Positions 9,382 through 22,260 of a stretch of 22,260 bases of DNA are shown here, piece after piece. Each line of letters begins with the position of its first letter. The stretch's first letter is position 1. Made by a program: the position numbers and the translations under genes. The notes beneath the pieces were generated by a model that saw nothing but the letters and a program-made list of their open reading frames with translations, ran no database searches and was not told the origin of the DNA. This stretch comes from a virus: the IMG/VR virus record IMGVR_UViG_3300033806_000003, positions 1-22,260 of that record, one strand, 5' to 3'.

Positions 9382-10797
9382 TTAAGAAATGTCTGCCATC
9401 GTCCCGGCACTATAACCAGGAGTAAAGGCGCTTGAACTCTCAGTCCTAACCAAGAATGCTTGATTGAGAATGATAGAGCCGTAAAACACCTTCCATGAAA
9501 CCACCCGCGTCTGATTCAAACGATCACTCTTATCGGCGCCGGTCAGGTAGAAGAATTCCGGGTTTTCAAGAATCACTTGGCCGTAGGAATGATTGCCAAT
9601 GAAAATCGTTGGAAACACGGTAACGCCGGTTGCGGGAGCAGCAGGCGGTGTCTGTGCAATCCCAATGCCCGTCAACACTACCGTTGCGCCAGAGGCCAAT
9701 TGCGTCGCCTGTCCAGCCAACGGGCCGCTGGTCGGACCCGATGTAGTAGTCGCCAGATTCACCGGGCTTGAAGTCGTCCCGATGTAGACGTTGAACACAT
9801 AGTTGGGCAGCGTTGGCAGAGTGACGGTGATTGAACCAGTCGGACCTGTCACCGAAATGTTGCCCGATACTTGATAGATTCTTTGCTCGACCGAAGTCAG
9901 TACCGGCGAGGCCGTGACCTGGATGTTATAAGTCGCCGACGTTGCTAATGTTCCACCTGTGGTCGATGCCGTACCGCTAACCAGAGCGACGCCAACCCAG
10001 TATGGAATCATGTTGCTTTCGACGAACCGGACGCCACCAAACTCACCGAGCTCATTGTTGTAGAGCCGGTTAATGTCGGAGTAAGCCCAAGCAGTGTTGA
10101 CTTGAGCGTTCTCGCGCATGTCCTGAGCAACAAGAGGATGAATCAGCGCAACATAATGTTGCTTGGTTGCCGGCGACTTTGATGGATCCCGGTACGCACC
10201 GGCCTCAATCATCATATCCTCGCGCTCGTCGCCCATGAATCGAGGAGCACCATACGTCAAGAGCGAGCCTACAATGCGATTGCTCTCATGTGGGCTCATC
10301 ACGTCCGTCGAGGTAAGGCCGGCACGGCTGGTACGGCCATTGACGAAGTTCACTTGATTGGCAGCGACCAACGTGTTCAGCGTGTTGCGCTCCAAGGTTT
10401 CCGGCATCTGAATGGAAACTAACTGAATCGCCTGCTGGAAGATCGGATGCTTGATCGTCAAGTTGGCAACGTCGGTTACTATCACCGAATCGCCCCATTG
10501 CTGCGCCGTCGCGCTTACCTGGACAAGTTGGACTGGCTCACCCGGAGGCGCCACACCCTCTTGTAACTGAGCAAAGGGAAGCGGTAGACGCTCAAAACGA
10601 GTCGCAGTGTAAGTAACACCCCGATTCGTATCCAAGTGCAGCGGCTTGCCGAACTGATAGGCGACTAATTGCCTTCGCGCTAACGGTTCTACTTCCTCCT
10701 GAATGAATGCTTCAACATCGGCCTGGAATCCGGCAGAGGTTGAGGAGTTAATGACGCCAAGCGTCAGATAAGCGGCAAGAAGGGAAAAGAATTTCAT
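9382..10797 (-). CDS. Major capsid protein, N4-gp56 family, with an inserted Ig/FnIII-like domain
   Basis: This 471-residue protein is the main shell subunit. After a hydrophobic start (MKFFSLLAAYLTLGVINSS) comes the HK97-fold pattern of the N4-gp56 family: an N-arm, the E-loop region (ERLPLPFAQLQEGVAPPGEP), WGDSVIVTDVANLTIKHPIF, and a spine helix region ending with ALIHPLVAQDMRENAQ. Residues ~270-390 are a beta-rich insertion (YNIQVTASPVLTSVEQRIYQ; VTLPTLPNYVFNVYIGTT; PPAAPATGVTV), followed by return to the fold (TIFIGNHSYGQVILENPEFF and a final KVFYGSIILNQAFLVRTES). The insertion is likely surface-exposed, as in decorated capsids. The ATG has GGAGAGG upstream. The scaffold gene precedes it and a strong terminator follows. 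Confidence 0.9.
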   Translation of the reverse strand: MKFFSLLAAYLTLGVINSSTSAGFQADVEAFIQEEVEPLARRQLVAYQFGKPLHLDTNRGVTYTATRFERLPLPFAQLQEGVAPPGEPVQLVQVSATAQQWGDSVIVTDVANLTIKHPIFQQAIQLVSIQMPETLERNTLNTLVAANQVNFVNGRTSRAGLTSTDVMSPHESNRIVGSLLTYGAPRFMGDEREDMMIEAGAYRDPSKSPATKQHYVALIHPLVAQDMRENAQVNTAWAYSDINRLYNNELGEFGGVRFVESNMIPYWVGVALVSGTASTTGGTLATSATYNIQVTASPVLTSVEQRIYQVSGNISVTGPTGSITVTLPTLPNYVFNVYIGTTSSPVNLATTTSGPTSGPLAGQATQLASGATVVLTGIGIAQTPPAAPATGVTVFPTIFIGNHSYGQVILENPEFFYLTGADKSDRLNQTRVVSWKVFYGSIILNQAFLVRTESSSAFTPGYSAGTMADIS

Positions 10798-17248: not shown

Positions 17249-17608
17249 TCAGGCATAGAAACTAATGTTGAGAATCGGCGTCCCCGTGGCAAGGATGAAC
17301 TGGATCTTGTTCAAGTCGCCGGAATAGTCCAATTCGCCGCCAGTCGAAAGAATCATCCCAATCGTTGACGTAGGCGCTGTACCGTCATCGCGCCAACGCA
17401 CGCTAGAAGTCGTTCCTTCGCACTGAATGATCGCGTAGCCAGGAACTAAGCCCAGGTTAGCGATCGGTGTCGGCAGTGTCAGGTTAGTGGCACTACCCAA
17501 TGTCCCGCTGGTGATCTGCTGATAGCCCAACGGCCGGCGATAGGCGCTGACCGTGCCCTCGCTAGGAGTCACGGCGAGTTGGAACAACTTACGCAGCCAC
17601 GCGACCAT
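17249..17608 (-). CDS. Small beta-rich structural protein with virion N-terminal motif
   Basis: This 119-residue protein starts at ATG 17608, chosen because AGGAGAGG lies just upstream; the reading from 17644 adds nothing. It overlaps the peptidase gene's end by 20 bases. It starts MVAWLRKLFQLAVTPSEG, then has a compact beta domain: NLGLVPGYAIIQCEGTTSSV, then RWRDDGTAPTSTIGMILSTG, and GELDYSGDLNKIQF ending TPILNISFYA. The RWRDDGT-APT-x-GM...GGE...GDL-x-x-x-F pattern recurs in phage structural clusters. The function is unknown; a head decoration or connector-proximal role is possible. Confidence 0.8.
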   Translation of the reverse strand: MVAWLRKLFQLAVTPSEGTVSAYRRPLGYQQITSGTLGSATNLTLPTPIANLGLVPGYAIIQCEGTTSSVRWRDDGTAPTSTIGMILSTGGELDYSGDLNKIQFILATGTPILNISFYA

Positions 17609-18065
17609 TGGCCTCTCCTTCAAGGTAGAGCCGTAGTGCGGCAATCCGCAGTTGAGGATCAGGATAATACCTCGTTGGCGGTTTTCCGCAACGCATCAGG
17701 AAAATCGCCATTCCCTGTCCGAATCCTTGGCTCGCCGCAAACTCATCGGCAGCATATTCTTGTCTCTGGCACATGAACCTTACCGCCTCTGTCCAACACA
17801 GCGGTACGCACAGTGCCCGAATCTCCATGTGCCACGCTTTGATGTGCTTTAACTCATGCAGCAAGACCGCCTGCTGTTCGCTCCATGAGAGATCGAAGAA
17901 CCTAGCACCAACGGCAATATGCTTGAACGGCCAAAACCCGCGAGCCTCGGCAATGACGTTCCATAGCATATCTGCCTTGACCGGAATGCCGCGAAAGCGG
18001 AAGCCGACTGGCAATCGGTCCAACGCTGCCGGCCCGATCGGCTTCCAAGTGATTCCGCGCTTCAT
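17589..18065 (-). CDS. M48-like zinc metallopeptidase encoded among structural genes
   Basis: This 158-residue protein has a complete gluzincin active site: H70-E71-L-K-H74 in AVLLHELKHIKAWH (two zinc His plus the catalytic Glu), and E103 in RQEYAADEFAAS, the third ligand of M48-type enzymes (E-x-x-x-D). The N-terminal ~60 residues are beta-rich and the segment between the motifs is hydrophobic (EIRALCVPLCWTEAV). There is no signal peptide; the length is close to a minimal M48/BlaR-like domain. The ATG overlaps the previous stop (ATGA). Peptidoglycan-unrelated proteolysis is expected; substrates could be virion proteins during maturation or a host protein. The fold is well supported, the target is inference. 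Confidence 0.85.
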   Translation of the reverse strand: MKRGITWKPIGPAALDRLPVGFRFRGIPVKADMLWNVIAEARGFWPFKHIAVGARFFDLSWSEQQAVLLHELKHIKAWHMEIRALCVPLCWTEAVRFMCQRQEYAADEFAASQGFGQGMAIFLMRCGKPPTRYYPDPQLRIAALRLYLEGEANGRVAA

Positions 18066-18280
18066 AGTTTCTTACCCTCCAGCCGAGCGATGCGCTCCAG
18101 CGATGCCTTTTGCTTTTCCGCCTCAGACTTCGCCGCCCTGAAGCGCCCCGTGTCATCCAGGATCTCTCGCGCACGCTGAAGCGACTGTAAATCATCGCGA
18201 GCTCGCCATGACTTATCGATCCCGTCTACCGCGATAGGGGCATTGCTACCGTCCTGCTTACGTTTGCGTTTCTTAGCCAC
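18062..18280 (-). CDS. Small basic helical protein between portal and peptidase
   Basis: This 72-residue protein starts at GTG 18280, which overlaps the portal stop by eight bases and has GGGGGTG upstream. The start of the longer frame (18349) runs inside the portal gene and is unlikely. The N-terminus is very basic (VAKKRKRKQDG). The rest is one long helix with coiled-coil spacing (LQSLQRAREILDDTGRFRAA; KSEAEKQKASLERIARLEGK). No family is recognised. A DNA-contacting or portal-associated role would suit the sequence and the overlap, but this is inference. Confidence 0.7.
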   Translation of the reverse strand: MAKKRKRKQDGSNAPIAVDGIDKSWRARDDLQSLQRAREILDDTGRFRAAKSEAEKQKASLERIARLEGKKL

Positions 18281-20473
18281 GTCCAGGCACCCCCGCCATT
18301 TGGTCTGGGTTGATTGCCCCAGCCGGATTCTGCCCCGTGCGCGGGCCACCCGCCGCCGGCATGGCTCCCGGCCTTGGGGCGCCGGCTACGCCAGGACCGG
18401 CTCCGCCAGGGCCACCGGGCAATCCACCCTGTTGAGCTTGCCCCATCTGCATCTGCCGCTTCTTTTGCATCTGCATCATGTGACCGCCCATGTGCTTCTT
18501 GAATAGCCCCATCGGATCTCCCGACATCGCGCCAGCCCGCATGTGCGACTGAATGTGGCGAGTGTCGTCATCGCCAGGATGCACTTCGACATCCATGCCG
18601 TTGAACAGGATCTCGTTCTCGGTTTCCGGGTCGATCTGGAACAGGTTGCGTTCATCGACCAGAATTCTCGGCGCTAGCTCGGGACCAAAGATGTTCTCGG
18701 TGCCCATCTCCAGGAACGGTCCCATATCAAGCCGACGCCCAGAGAGCATTTGCGGAGGCACACCCTTGATGACGTTGACCCAAGCAATCTGCTGCTGCAT
18801 ACGTTGCAAGTTTGCCATCGCCTCGGTGCCTGACCAGCGGAAGAAATACTTCTCGCCCCACTGCTGAGGAGGGATGGCCTCGATCTTGGCCTTGGCTCCG
18901 ATCTCTCCGCGCTGCTCAACTTCTAGATCGCGTGTCCGAAACTGCTGATCGAATTCGAACAGCATCTCCACCAACGGATGCAGCATCGCCTGCTCATAGC
19001 GCGAGGCATGGTCGACGATATTGGTCTGCTGCTCTTGCTGCATCTGGCCCATCAATTGATTGTTCTTTCTCCCCTGCGGCATCTTCCCCATCATCATCTC
19101 GTTCACATCCATCGATTCCCAGATTTGCCGTTTCATCTCCTGGCAAATGCTCATCGCATCTTTCCACAACGGAGGGAATGGAATGGGCTTGATCGAGTCA
19201 GGTCCGATCGGCCATACCGCAGCAAGCCCAAGGACAAGAGAAGCCCAATTGGTCACTTTCAGCGGATCCGCCGCCATCACTGGCAGCAGCGAATACATGG
19301 CCGAGTCCTGCCCCATGTTCCAAAAGTCGCACAGATTCCACTGAATGAACTTAACGGGCTCTATCTTCGATTTGCCGAAGAATGATCCGGCGATACGCTC
19401 GACCGGCTCTGAGATGATCGGTCGCTTCCCGCTCCACAGCGGGTTGCGAATGATGCCAATGATGTCAACGGGCGAAGCGTAGTAGACGATCGCTTCCTCT
19501 TTGCGATCTCCGCCAAGATCAAGCTTCTGGTAGACCTGGAAGACCACTGCGTACTTGTCGGTGCCTTCGGTCTTGACCCCGGCATCGTTCGTCTGCTGTT
19601 TCGGCGGAGGGCGCCGATCCTTGCTCTTATCCGGCTCGCAAAACGCCTCGATGTCGGAGCCAGGAGGAAGGATGAACACGCCCTCATCGACCATCTCTTG
19701 AACTTTCGCTGCGCTCATCCGAAGGCGCACGGCAACCGCTCTCGCTTTCTGCAAGTCATTGCAGGTCGGCGGCACCACGGCAAGATCCTCGGTCGCGAAG
19801 TCGATCACTTCCGGTCCTTCGCGAAAAATCTCCTCCTCCTCCAATTCCTCCTCAGGCTCGGCAGTGATGTCGGCGAGCTCCAGATCACCGATCTCGGAAA
19901 ATCCATCGGCGGTTTCGATGCCTTCGACGATGGGATTGCGCTTGACGATGCGCTTGAGTACGCGGACTGATTTAGTCCAATCCACCATCAAATTCCACTG
20001 ACCTGTCACATCTCCAGCGATCAAATCGCTGCGCACCACCGATTTCAAATCCGTGGTACGAATGTAGTGCTCCAGCAATGCTAATTGCGTGTGCGGAGTC
20101 TTGCCGTCAGAGGAGATTCCCGTAACGTGCTTATCGTTATCAGGAAAGAGATTGCGGAGTGCACGCTTGGTCCGTGCGTTGATTGCATCGCGCACGGCTG
20201 GAATGTAGCCCTTGGAATTTCCGGTATAGCGAAGGTTATCGTCCGGTGTAGCGTTGAAGATGCACCAATACTCGGTGATGCGGTTAACCTGCTCGTCCTT
20301 GTTGTCGTAAGCCTTGACGATCGTGGTGTAGAGCTTGGATGCCGCTTCAAAGGCTGCGGATTTGCGCCTATCCGCCCAATTCTTGATGTTGGGCTTATCG
20401 CCCTCCAGCGTGTCGGGATCGCCGACTGCGTTTACGCTATCGGAGGGTAGGTCTTTTTTTTTGAGCGAGCCAT
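18273..20473 (-). CDS. Portal protein (~733 aa), reading frame shift at an A9 run near the start
   Basis: The portal forms the dodecameric DNA channel at one capsid vertex. The frame spans 20492-18273 and contains portal-like segments: RDAINARTKRALRNLFPDND, then LLEHYIRTTDLKSVVRSDLI, a clip/stem region around WNLCDFWNMGQDSAMYSLLP and ESMDVNEMMMGKMPQGRKNN, and a Met/Gln/Gly/Pro-rich C-terminal tail. Length is close to P22-type portals (725 aa). The portal frame contains no ATG, GTG or TTG upstream of 20195, where homologous-looking sequence already runs. The only good start, ATG 20473 (14 bases after the previous gene), is one base out of frame until the A9 run at 20454-20462. A -1 slip there yields MARSKKKDLPSDS and ~733 residues. 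A one-base homopolymer error would give the same protein. Confidence 0.85.
20401..20473 (-). promoter_or_regulatory. Candidate -1 ribosomal frameshift element at the start of the portal gene
   Basis: In the frame of ATG 20473 the codons read TCA AAA AAA AAG, so the heptamer A_AAA_AAG (20459-20453) is in phase; this is the slippery site of E. coli dnaX. Five bases later a stem-loop begins: CCCTCC pairs with GGAGGG (20442-20447 / 20401-20406), AGCGT with ACGCT (20434-20438 / 20407-20411), and GTCGG with CCGAC (20422-20426 / 20412-20416). The 3' strand is thus paired over 16 consecutive bases. Without slipping, the product ends after 13 residues at TAA 20432-20434. An upstream SD-like stimulator is not seen. 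Confidence 0.5.
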
Positions 20474-20487
20474 CAATACTTGTGCTG

Positions 20488-20658
20488 CTAGATCATCACG
20501 CCTGCGAGTTTCTTCGAGCGATGCGGATTGGCCTTGCGTTTGCCAGCGTGGGTCTTACGTCGAGCCGCGTGCTTTGATCCCATGCCATCGGAGGCGAGCT
20601 TAGGCGTCGCTGCCGCAGGAAACTTCTTGTGCTTGAATGACGATTCTTTGCGTGCCAT
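20488..20658 (-). CDS. Tiny, very basic protein upstream of the portal
   Basis: This 56-residue protein (MARKESSFKHKKFPAAATPK...) starts at ATG 20658, which overlaps the previous stop as TGATG, and ends at TAG 20488-20490. It carries about 16 Lys/Arg against 2 acidic residues and has no predicted hydrophobic core. It shares the motif HAGKRK with HAGKKS in the protein encoded just before it. Highly basic and probably disordered, it may bind DNA or RNA. It is too short for default gene calling, but the start/stop coupling and shared motif support it. Confidence 0.65.
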   Translation of the reverse strand: MARKESSFKHKKFPAAATPKLASDGMGSKHAARRKTHAGKRKANPHRSKKLAGVMI

Positions 20659-20912
20659 CAGATTCCCCTTGAGCCTAAACGCCGCAGCAGCGCGGCCCGC
20701 GCCTTGGCTTTCTTAGCCTGTGGTTGCATGTGCTGCGCCCCTACCGCTGGGCGCGGACGATCATCTGGTTCCAGTTTCTTGACGTGCTTGGCAAACGGCT
20801 GCTTGCCGGCGATTTTCTCGGGCACAACCACCGCAGAGCGAGGGCTTTTTTTACCTGCATGACGGCGCAGGTTGCCCTTGCCCTTGGGGTGGTGCATCTT
20901 GCGCATCGCCAT
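20658..20912 (-). CDS. Small basic protein, likely nucleic-acid binding
   Basis: This 84-residue protein (MAMRKMHHPKGKGNLRRHAG...) is rich in Lys and Arg. It has two blocks: GNLRRHAGKKSPRS near the start and QAKKAKARAALLRRLGSRG at the end, the latter probably an amphipathic helix. The centre is Pro-rich. There is no strong SD before ATG 20912; translation may be coupled to the gene ending at 20919. Composition suggests DNA or RNA contact, for example in packaging. No family is recognised. Confidence 0.7.
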   Translation of the reverse strand: MAMRKMHHPKGKGNLRRHAGKKSPRSAVVVPEKIAGKQPFAKHVKKLEPDDRPRPAVGAQHMQPQAKKAKARAALLRRLGSRGI

Positions 20913-20918
20913 GATCGG

Positions 20919-21098
20919 TCAAGTCTGCGACTTGTTGAGCTTCGGGTTGCCCCAAATCTTCTCGCGCATCTTGCCCGATTTCGGATGCTCGGGAACTTTC
21001 GAGGGCGAGCCGTAAGCTCCGCCCTGCTGCTTCATCTCAAAGAAATCGGTGCCATCCTGCGAGGGTGCTTTACGGCCGAGTACCTTGGACACTGCCAT
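20919..21098 (-). CDS. Small basic protein downstream of the terminase gene
   Basis: This 59-residue protein (MAVSKVLGRKAPSQDGTDFF...) starts at ATG 21098, with GAGG six bases upstream; the TTG at 21110 has none. It contains Lys-rich, Gly/Pro-rich sequence (HPKSGKMREKIWGNPKLNKS) and one short hydrophobic helix at the start. It is the first gene after the candidate promoter at 21134-21162. No family is recognised. A role in packaging or DNA contact is inferred from its charge and place between terminase and portal. Confidence 0.7.
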   Translation of the reverse strand: MAVSKVLGRKAPSQDGTDFFEMKQQGGAYGSPSKVPEHPKSGKMREKIWGNPKLNKSQT

Positions 21099-21133
21099 GA
21101 TTGACCTCAACGAAAGCCTTGATCGGCAAGGGG

Positions 21134-21162
21134 ATAATCCGCCGCCCTTGGCGGTCTGTCAA
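21134..21162 (-). promoter_or_regulatory. Sigma70-like promoter at the terminase stop codon
   Basis: A perfect -35 TTGACA (21157-21162) includes the terminase TGA. Seventeen bases later is GATTAT (21134-21139), which matches four of six -10 bases. Transcription would start near 21127, leaving a ~29-base leader with an SD before ATG 21098. The spacer contains a small perfect hairpin (CCGCC-AAG-GGCGG). This is the best promoter-like site seen and would drive the portal-structural operon. Confidence 0.55.
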
Positions 21163-22260
21163 GCACGGGCTCGCGGGTTAGCCGAGATGAAGGCGTTGCC
21201 AGAGGGATTGAGCTCGACGTTGGCCCCTTTGGGGAAGGTTTCGGCGAGTTGGCTCGTCTGATCGAGCGTCGCAACCAAGCACTCCAGCGCCTCCCCAATC
21301 AAACGCGACGTGCCCGGCTCCGGTTCTTGCAGTGCTCGTCCTCCACGTTCCACGGGAAACGCATAGCCGGCTCCTATGGCATTCAGCGTAAGACAAGCCC
21401 TTTTGTCGACGACCAGAAGGCGAGCATTTCGCCAAGGAGTGCGGATACGCTCGGCGAGCACTCCACGGGCGACGGCGGCGTGTTCCGCACGCAGCGGGTT
21501 GAGGCGCTGAGTGCGAAGCGCCGGTACGATCGGAATCCGCGCCCACTGATCGAACGTATCGGCTGGCACCCACGCTTGGATGTCGGCCATAGGAAAGGAG
21601 GTTCGCACCTCGAAACAAAGGGTCTTAACCGCATCGGCGATCGCTCCCGCATGGGCAAAATCGCCCGCAACGTGCAGGCGCCGTCCCTCGCGAATGACGC
21701 ACACCGCCACGCACTCAGAGGGCGAAGCGTTGAAGCCAACAAACACCGGCTCGCCCCTCTCCGGTTTCGGAGCATCGCCAATGTTCGCACCTGAAAAGTC
21801 CTCGTACACGGGAATCCCCGCAAAGATCCGCATAGCATACGCCAGCGCGTTCATCACGTCACGCGGCCCATTGGGGAAGTTGCACCACTCCGCCACCAAT
21901 TGCGGGTGCATTCCTCGCCCGCCAACGAGCACGATGTCACGCGCCTGGGCGAACGGCAGCAAGCCGCGAATGAACTCGTCCTTGTTGCGATCTTGCGGAG
22001 CATTCATGCCGATCAACGGCAGTGTCGTGCCGCGCCGCATCATCTCCAGGCGCATCGGCTGCAACAGCCAATCATCGAGCGAAGTCTTTTCGATCCCGAT
22101 CTTGACGGGTGAATGCTTCTCATAAGTCTCGAACACATCGCGCATGAATTCGTCGGGTTGCCAATACTCGCCGCGTGATTCATGCACCAGGATCTTCGAT
22201 CCCATCCGGCTTACCACAACCTTGCCGGTGCGCGCCGATTGCTGCTCATTGGGTCCGTTG
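21159..22260 (-). CDS. terL: Terminase large subunit, C-terminal part (partial at right edge), with extra nuclease-like domain
   Basis: The frame stays open from 22260 (366 residues visible); the GTG at 22217 is not a true start. The first ~130 residues form the RNase H-like nuclease half of TerL: a beta segment, VKIGIEKTSLDDWLLQPMRL, a helix-strand stretch (DKFIRGLLPFA-like: KDEFIRGLLPFAQARDIVLV), then FPNGPRDVMNALAYAMRI, which matches the last catalytic Asp motif. The ATPase part lies outside the window. Residues ~157-320 (counted from 22217) look like a second, degenerate TerL nuclease-like domain: FVGFNASPSECVAVCVIREG, LNPLRAEHAAVARGVLAERI, ARLLVVDKRACLTLNAIGAG, YAFPVERGG and EPGTSRLIGEALECLVATLD. 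The enzyme packages genome DNA with the portal. Confidence 0.88.
   Translation of the reverse strand, partial: NGPNEQQSARTGKVVVSRMGSKILVHESRGEYWQPDEFMRDVFETYEKHSPVKIGIEKTSLDDWLLQPMRLEMMRRGTTLPLIGMNAPQDRNKDEFIRGLLPFAQARDIVLVGGRGMHPQLVAEWCNFPNGPRDVMNALAYAMRIFAGIPVYEDFSGANIGDAPKPERGEPVFVGFNASPSECVAVCVIREGRRLHVAGDFAHAGAIADAVKTLCFEVRTSFPMADIQAWVPADTFDQWARIPIVPALRTQRLNPLRAEHAAVARGVLAERIRTPWRNARLLVVDKRACLTLNAIGAGYAFPVERGGRALQEPEPGTSRLIGEALECLVATLDQTSQLAETFPKGANVELNPSGNAFISANPRARA

Follow-up and report, generated by a model that had tools for sequence, protein, structure and literature searches.

The window analysed here is a viral contig of 22,260 bases whose right end cuts through a gene for a large terminase (TerL). 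The part of this gene that lies in the window, an ORF at 21159..22259 (-), reads as the original prediction described it, with the quoted peptides present, and the full ORF of 675 aa is held by a second contig, L002 (positions 896-2923), that is near-identical to the window (99.9% over 6.3 kb). Residues 1-309 of the protein, with the ATPase and D300, fall outside the window and are read in L002. Residues 310-452 (21831..22259, -) make up most of the protein's own nuclease, of the N4-like (phrog_38) type, with E366 at 22089-22091 (-) and D443 at 21858-21860 (-). Directly after the last helix of this nuclease comes an interdomain linker of the phrog_2 type with a G.PVY.DF motif (residues 453-474; 21765..21830, -), which is followed by what fold prediction, profile comparison and residue loss point to as a second RNase H-like domain, a dead nuclease of the phrog_2 type (residues 475-643; 21258..21764, -). 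A short C-terminal arm, modelled with low confidence, ends the protein (residues 644-675; 21162..21257, -). The fusion joint would thus be located around residue 452/453, as we infer from the sequence. An extra region at the end of the terminase had been predicted at 21159-21749; the region is real but was drawn too small, as the foreign part starts at residue 453, includes the linker and spans 21162-21830 (-).

The front half of the terminase

The front half of the protein is of one type throughout. A PHROG scan matches residues 31-462 to phrog_38 (E 1e-31), and in profile comparisons the ATPase scores 184 against the N4-like profile versus 20 against the phrog_2 type, while the corresponding values for the nuclease are 157 and 30, the latter over 14 columns. 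The Walker A and B residues of the ATPase (R55, K59, D157 and D158) are present in every distinct sequence covering them, and all 47 distinct sequences with coverage of the nuclease positions have D300, E366 and D443. Judged by these residues and profiles, residues 1-452 are a complete phrog_38/N4-like ATPase with an intact nuclease. Both domains are shared with other phrog_38/N4-like TerLs, such as that of Desulfofustis phage LS06-2018-MD01. However, the TerLs of the Desulfofustis and Microcystis phages and of distant contigs are mostly of about 500-545 aa and stop shortly past the nuclease, whereas the TerL of the window continues into the additional C-terminal part, referred to here as the TerL tail.

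Fold, ancestry and active site of the TerL tail

An AlphaFold2 model of the tail, based on the family alignment, shows the strands and helices in RNase H order (pLDDT 74, pTM 0.77), and in a model of the full-length protein most of residues 470-600 reach a pLDDT of 85-95. When the tail model was compared with the PDB by Foldseek, the first 17 matches were all TerL chains (including D6E, 5oee, E 8e-6, and SPP1, 2wc9), with the G20c, RuvC and HCMV nucleases lower in the list and with moderate TM-scores of 0.44-0.65. The structure prediction and superposition that had been proposed along with the original prediction therefore place the tail, on predicted models, in an RNase H-like fold nearest to the TerL nucleases. 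The closest solved folds are the nucleases of the D6E, SPP1 and G20c TerLs, which have metal-binding active sites and occur as one nuclease domain per protein.

Neither scans against Pfam and PHROG nor sequence searches of solved structures gave a usable match for the tail. A relation was found by comparison with TerLs of the phrog_2 type, represented by 120 viral contigs with a YSHPxxDALQYL motif, one example of which falls in phrog_2; the TerL of Bordetella phage BPP-1 was dropped as a comparator, since it has no SHPxDALQYL ending. The tail matches the phrog_2-type nuclease profile with a probability of 97.3, an E of 2e-11 and a score of 74.5 over 161/169 columns, compared with 13.3 +/- 2.4 (maximum 22.2, n=60) for column-shuffled controls. 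With flanking sequence added, the score against phrog_2-type TerLs rises to 104 (E 7.7e-15) over 190 columns, and the alignment starts at residue 453, so that the whole domain and the linker are covered. Plain HMMER recovers the relation in both directions (E ~2e-4). The linker points to the same lineage, as the G.PVY.DF motif is carried by 75/102 phrog_2-type TerLs and 66/72 members of the tailed family but by 0/25 N4-like TerLs. It is therefore well supported by profile and motif evidence that the tail and its linker descend from a different terminase lineage than the front half, namely the phrog_2 type with its SHPxDALQYL ending, and the comparison with YSHPxDALQYL in the original prediction was an apt one. 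Phrog_2-type TerLs are ordinary two-domain proteins with the catalytic Asp residues kept; here their C-terminal part alone is retained and these residues are lost.

Indeed, all three catalytic positions are altered. The first, on strand 1, is N486 (the Asn of 'GFN'; 21729-21731, -), and among 48 distinct tails it is Asn in 45, Ser in two and His in one, while phrog_2-type TerLs have Asp in 69/70. The second lies in W539-V-P-A-D543 (21558..21572, -), the counterpart of WxDPAG in phrog_2-type TerLs, where Pro541 takes the place of the Asp and Pro or Thr is found across the tailed family. At the third, HPxDALQYL has become LIGEALECL and the residue is E632 (21291..21293, -), with Glu in 46 tails, Gln in one and Val in one. 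The catalytic Asp triad is thus missing from the tail, although nearby acidic residues are conserved, with Asp or Glu at position 543 and Asp at position 546 in 46/48 each. By its sequence, the tail is a homologue of the phrog_2-type nuclease domain that is apparently dead rather than an active member. The claim of a second, RNase H-like and catalytically degenerate nuclease domain is hence borne out by AlphaFold2 and Foldseek, by the profiles and by the loss of catalytic residues in all 48 sequences.

Distribution of the tailed family and its neighbouring genes

To find the family, an alignment of the full-length protein and the Desulfofustis TerL served as the query; one built from seven distant TerLs was too divergent to be used. 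The search recovered 28 relatives with identities of 42-49%, in two of which (L033 and L035) the contig ends before the tail is reached, as well as 25 distant TerLs whose match stops at about residue 480. Later scans added further tailed relatives down to 29% identity. The search for other TerLs with this tail, suggested with the original prediction, thus yielded 48 distinct tail sequences from many independent contigs, always fused to TerL. Of 107 tail-bearing loci, some of which are overlapping stretches of a single contig, 106 have the tail and the protein's own nuclease in one ORF and the remaining one starts at a contig edge; no stand-alone tail was found. In eight usable pairs the dN/dS of the tail is 0.05-0.19 (NG86; approximate values, as dS is often near saturation), mostly somewhat above that of the front nuclease; in these pairs, therefore, the tail evolves under purifying selection.

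Intermediates were sought as long phrog_2-type TerLs with both nucleases, and none of these proteins gave a match to the profiles of the N4-like ATPase or nuclease; their extra length appears to come from upstream read-through or an intein. In one of them, the 823-aa ORF of L094, a phrog_2-type TerL is apparently interrupted at the P-loop by an intein-like segment. In a collection of 50,697 phage records, tblastn of the tail returned nothing significant and no record covered 80% of the full-length query, so that the tailed family is essentially absent from that collection. A similar architecture may be present in a BFVD match of 672 aa, A0A8S5VBB5 from Myoviridae sp. ctbEa13, whose alignment extends over 660 columns. 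The only genome matches are two contigs (L260 and L261) of the uncultured betaproteobacterium MAG CAIJPE01, by which the host is weakly indicated.

The structural genes of the locus resemble those of phages with phrog_2-type TerLs. The portal protein (18273..20195, -) is related to portals encoded beside phrog_2-type TerLs and not to those beside N4-like TerLs: the tailed-family portal profile scores 78, 61 and 48 against three portal clusters of the phrog_2 side, which are related to one another, and 17, at background, against the neighbours of N4-like TerLs, which do match portal-type PHROGs. The match to the phrog_2 lineage is remote and is seen at the profile level only. Similarly, the major capsid protein (phrog_1357; 9382..10797, -) has matches in phrog_2-TerL phages only (6/30 phrog_2-type records and 0/28 N4-like ones, many of both being fragments). 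From these profile matches it follows that the TerL tail, which aligns with phrog_2-type TerLs together with its linker, shares one ancestry with the portal and the capsid, while the motor has another.

Other features of the neighbourhood were recorded. The major capsid protein has 471 aa against 356 positions in phrog_1357, with seemingly around 100 residues inserted. Three small ORFs of 63, 84 and 56 aa are located between TerL and portal (20488-21110, -); the 63-aa ORF is kept in about 30 tailed-TerL loci, while the 84- and 56-aa ORFs, very rich in Lys, Arg and His, are found only in the nearest relatives. A 158-aa protein (17589-18065, -) is conserved in 59 tailed loci and weakly matches a metallo-protease PHROG (E 0.01).

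A possible transplant of the packaging motor

We consider it probable that the end of a resident terminase was joined to an N4-like motor, and that the dead nuclease has been kept as a portal dock. Recombination into the terL of a phage with a phrog_2-type head would have brought in an N4-like terminase, and the incoming protein would have landed in front of the linker and nuclease of the resident terminase, whose ATPase would be gone; we infer that the exchange between the lineages went in this direction. The resident nuclease would have been left as a C-terminal relic, losing catalysis because the new nuclease does the cutting, and would have been kept because it carries contacts with the phage's own portal, perhaps also with DNA. 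Through the dead domain the foreign motor would then dock on the original capsid, while the packaging cuts would be made by the front nuclease. Since the nuclease domains of HK97 have been fitted directly below the portal (PMC10359639), docking to a portal of the phrog_2 lineage is, by analogy, the most likely reason for retention, and C-terminal nuclease domains are believed to be what holds motors to the portal (PMC7672431); the C-terminal arm of D6E (PMC5727402) is a further precedent. Of the three binding partners named in the original prediction, DNA, portal and small terminase, the ancestry of portal and capsid favours the portal. Against docking, the residues of T4 that contact the portal have been located to a helix-loop-helix at the hinge (PMC9958956).

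By a different analogy, the captured nuclease could help to hold DNA, as an additional clamp or a processivity element, instead of docking on the portal, which we regard as rather unlikely. Such a role has been proposed for the C-terminal domain of phi29 gp16, which still binds DNA without catalysis (PMC7672431), and conserved Arg residues (R550, R574 and R582) are found in the tail; however, the protein's own nuclease domain is already available for DNA binding, and a clamp would leave the common ancestry of tail, portal and capsid unexplained. A regulatory role of the tail, through binding of the small terminase or through restraint of the active nuclease or of the oligomeric state, appears improbable. 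No obvious small terminase gene is seen beside terL in L002, L010, L013 and the other loci inspected, as judged by ORF lengths only, so recruitment may differ in this family, and the C-terminal arm of D6E affects ATP binding, for which a control of assembly has been proposed (PMC5727402), but the placement of the domains in the full-length model (pTM 0.54) is too uncertain to favour this role. The acidic residues at 543, 546 and 632, each conserved in 46/48 tails, give a very small chance that the tail has a rearranged active site and acts as a second nuclease, given that the strand-1 Asp is replaced in 48/48 and that incomplete active sites in the nuclease superfamily are often inactive (PMC3985635).

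The original prediction had also offered two origins for the domain, captured or tandem duplicated. Capture agrees with the phrog_2-type match, whereas duplication of the protein's own nuclease, for which the same fold class and a weak in-register stretch of 67 columns could be cited, is rejected: the tail scores 17 against its own nuclease (shuffled maximum 18.0) and 11.6 against the N4-like nuclease, both at shuffled background, versus 71-104 against the nuclease of phrog_2-type TerLs, and its linker, too, carries the phrog_2-type motif. Finally, chance or misassembly could in principle fuse two terminase lineages, yet the 48 distinct in-frame versions on many contigs, their spread down to 29% identity and the low dN/dS allow both a functionless read-through remnant and a chimera of the assembly to be dismissed.

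A dead terminase nuclease as such was already known. The C-terminal domain of phi29 gp16 is likewise RNase H-like, is without catalytic residues and is retained in a packaging motor (PMC7672431). In phi29, however, the vestigial nuclease is the motor's only C-terminal domain, while here it is additional, follows an intact nuclease and stems from another terminase lineage. Hence the novelty that the original prediction saw in a pseudo-nuclease holds for the extra domain and not for a vestigial nuclease in general. In the open-licence literature searched, we found no account of a terminase that has two nuclease domains or contains a pseudonuclease, nor of an extra dead nuclease of a foreign terminase lineage behind an intact one.

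The part of the terminase that attaches to the portal and the orientation of the nuclease domains have long been debated. A protein with both an intact nuclease and a conserved dead one separates cutting from any structural role of the nuclease domain, and the tailed TerL thereby makes the docking question testable. More tentatively, the tailed family may be a natural motor transplant, in which the packaging engine was swapped between lineages and the old, dead nuclease was kept as the coupling to the portal; this suggests how phages of different lineages may exchange packaging motors even though a motor has to fit its portal. If the transplant is true, the terminase nuclease domain would have a separable docking function that is selected even without catalysis.
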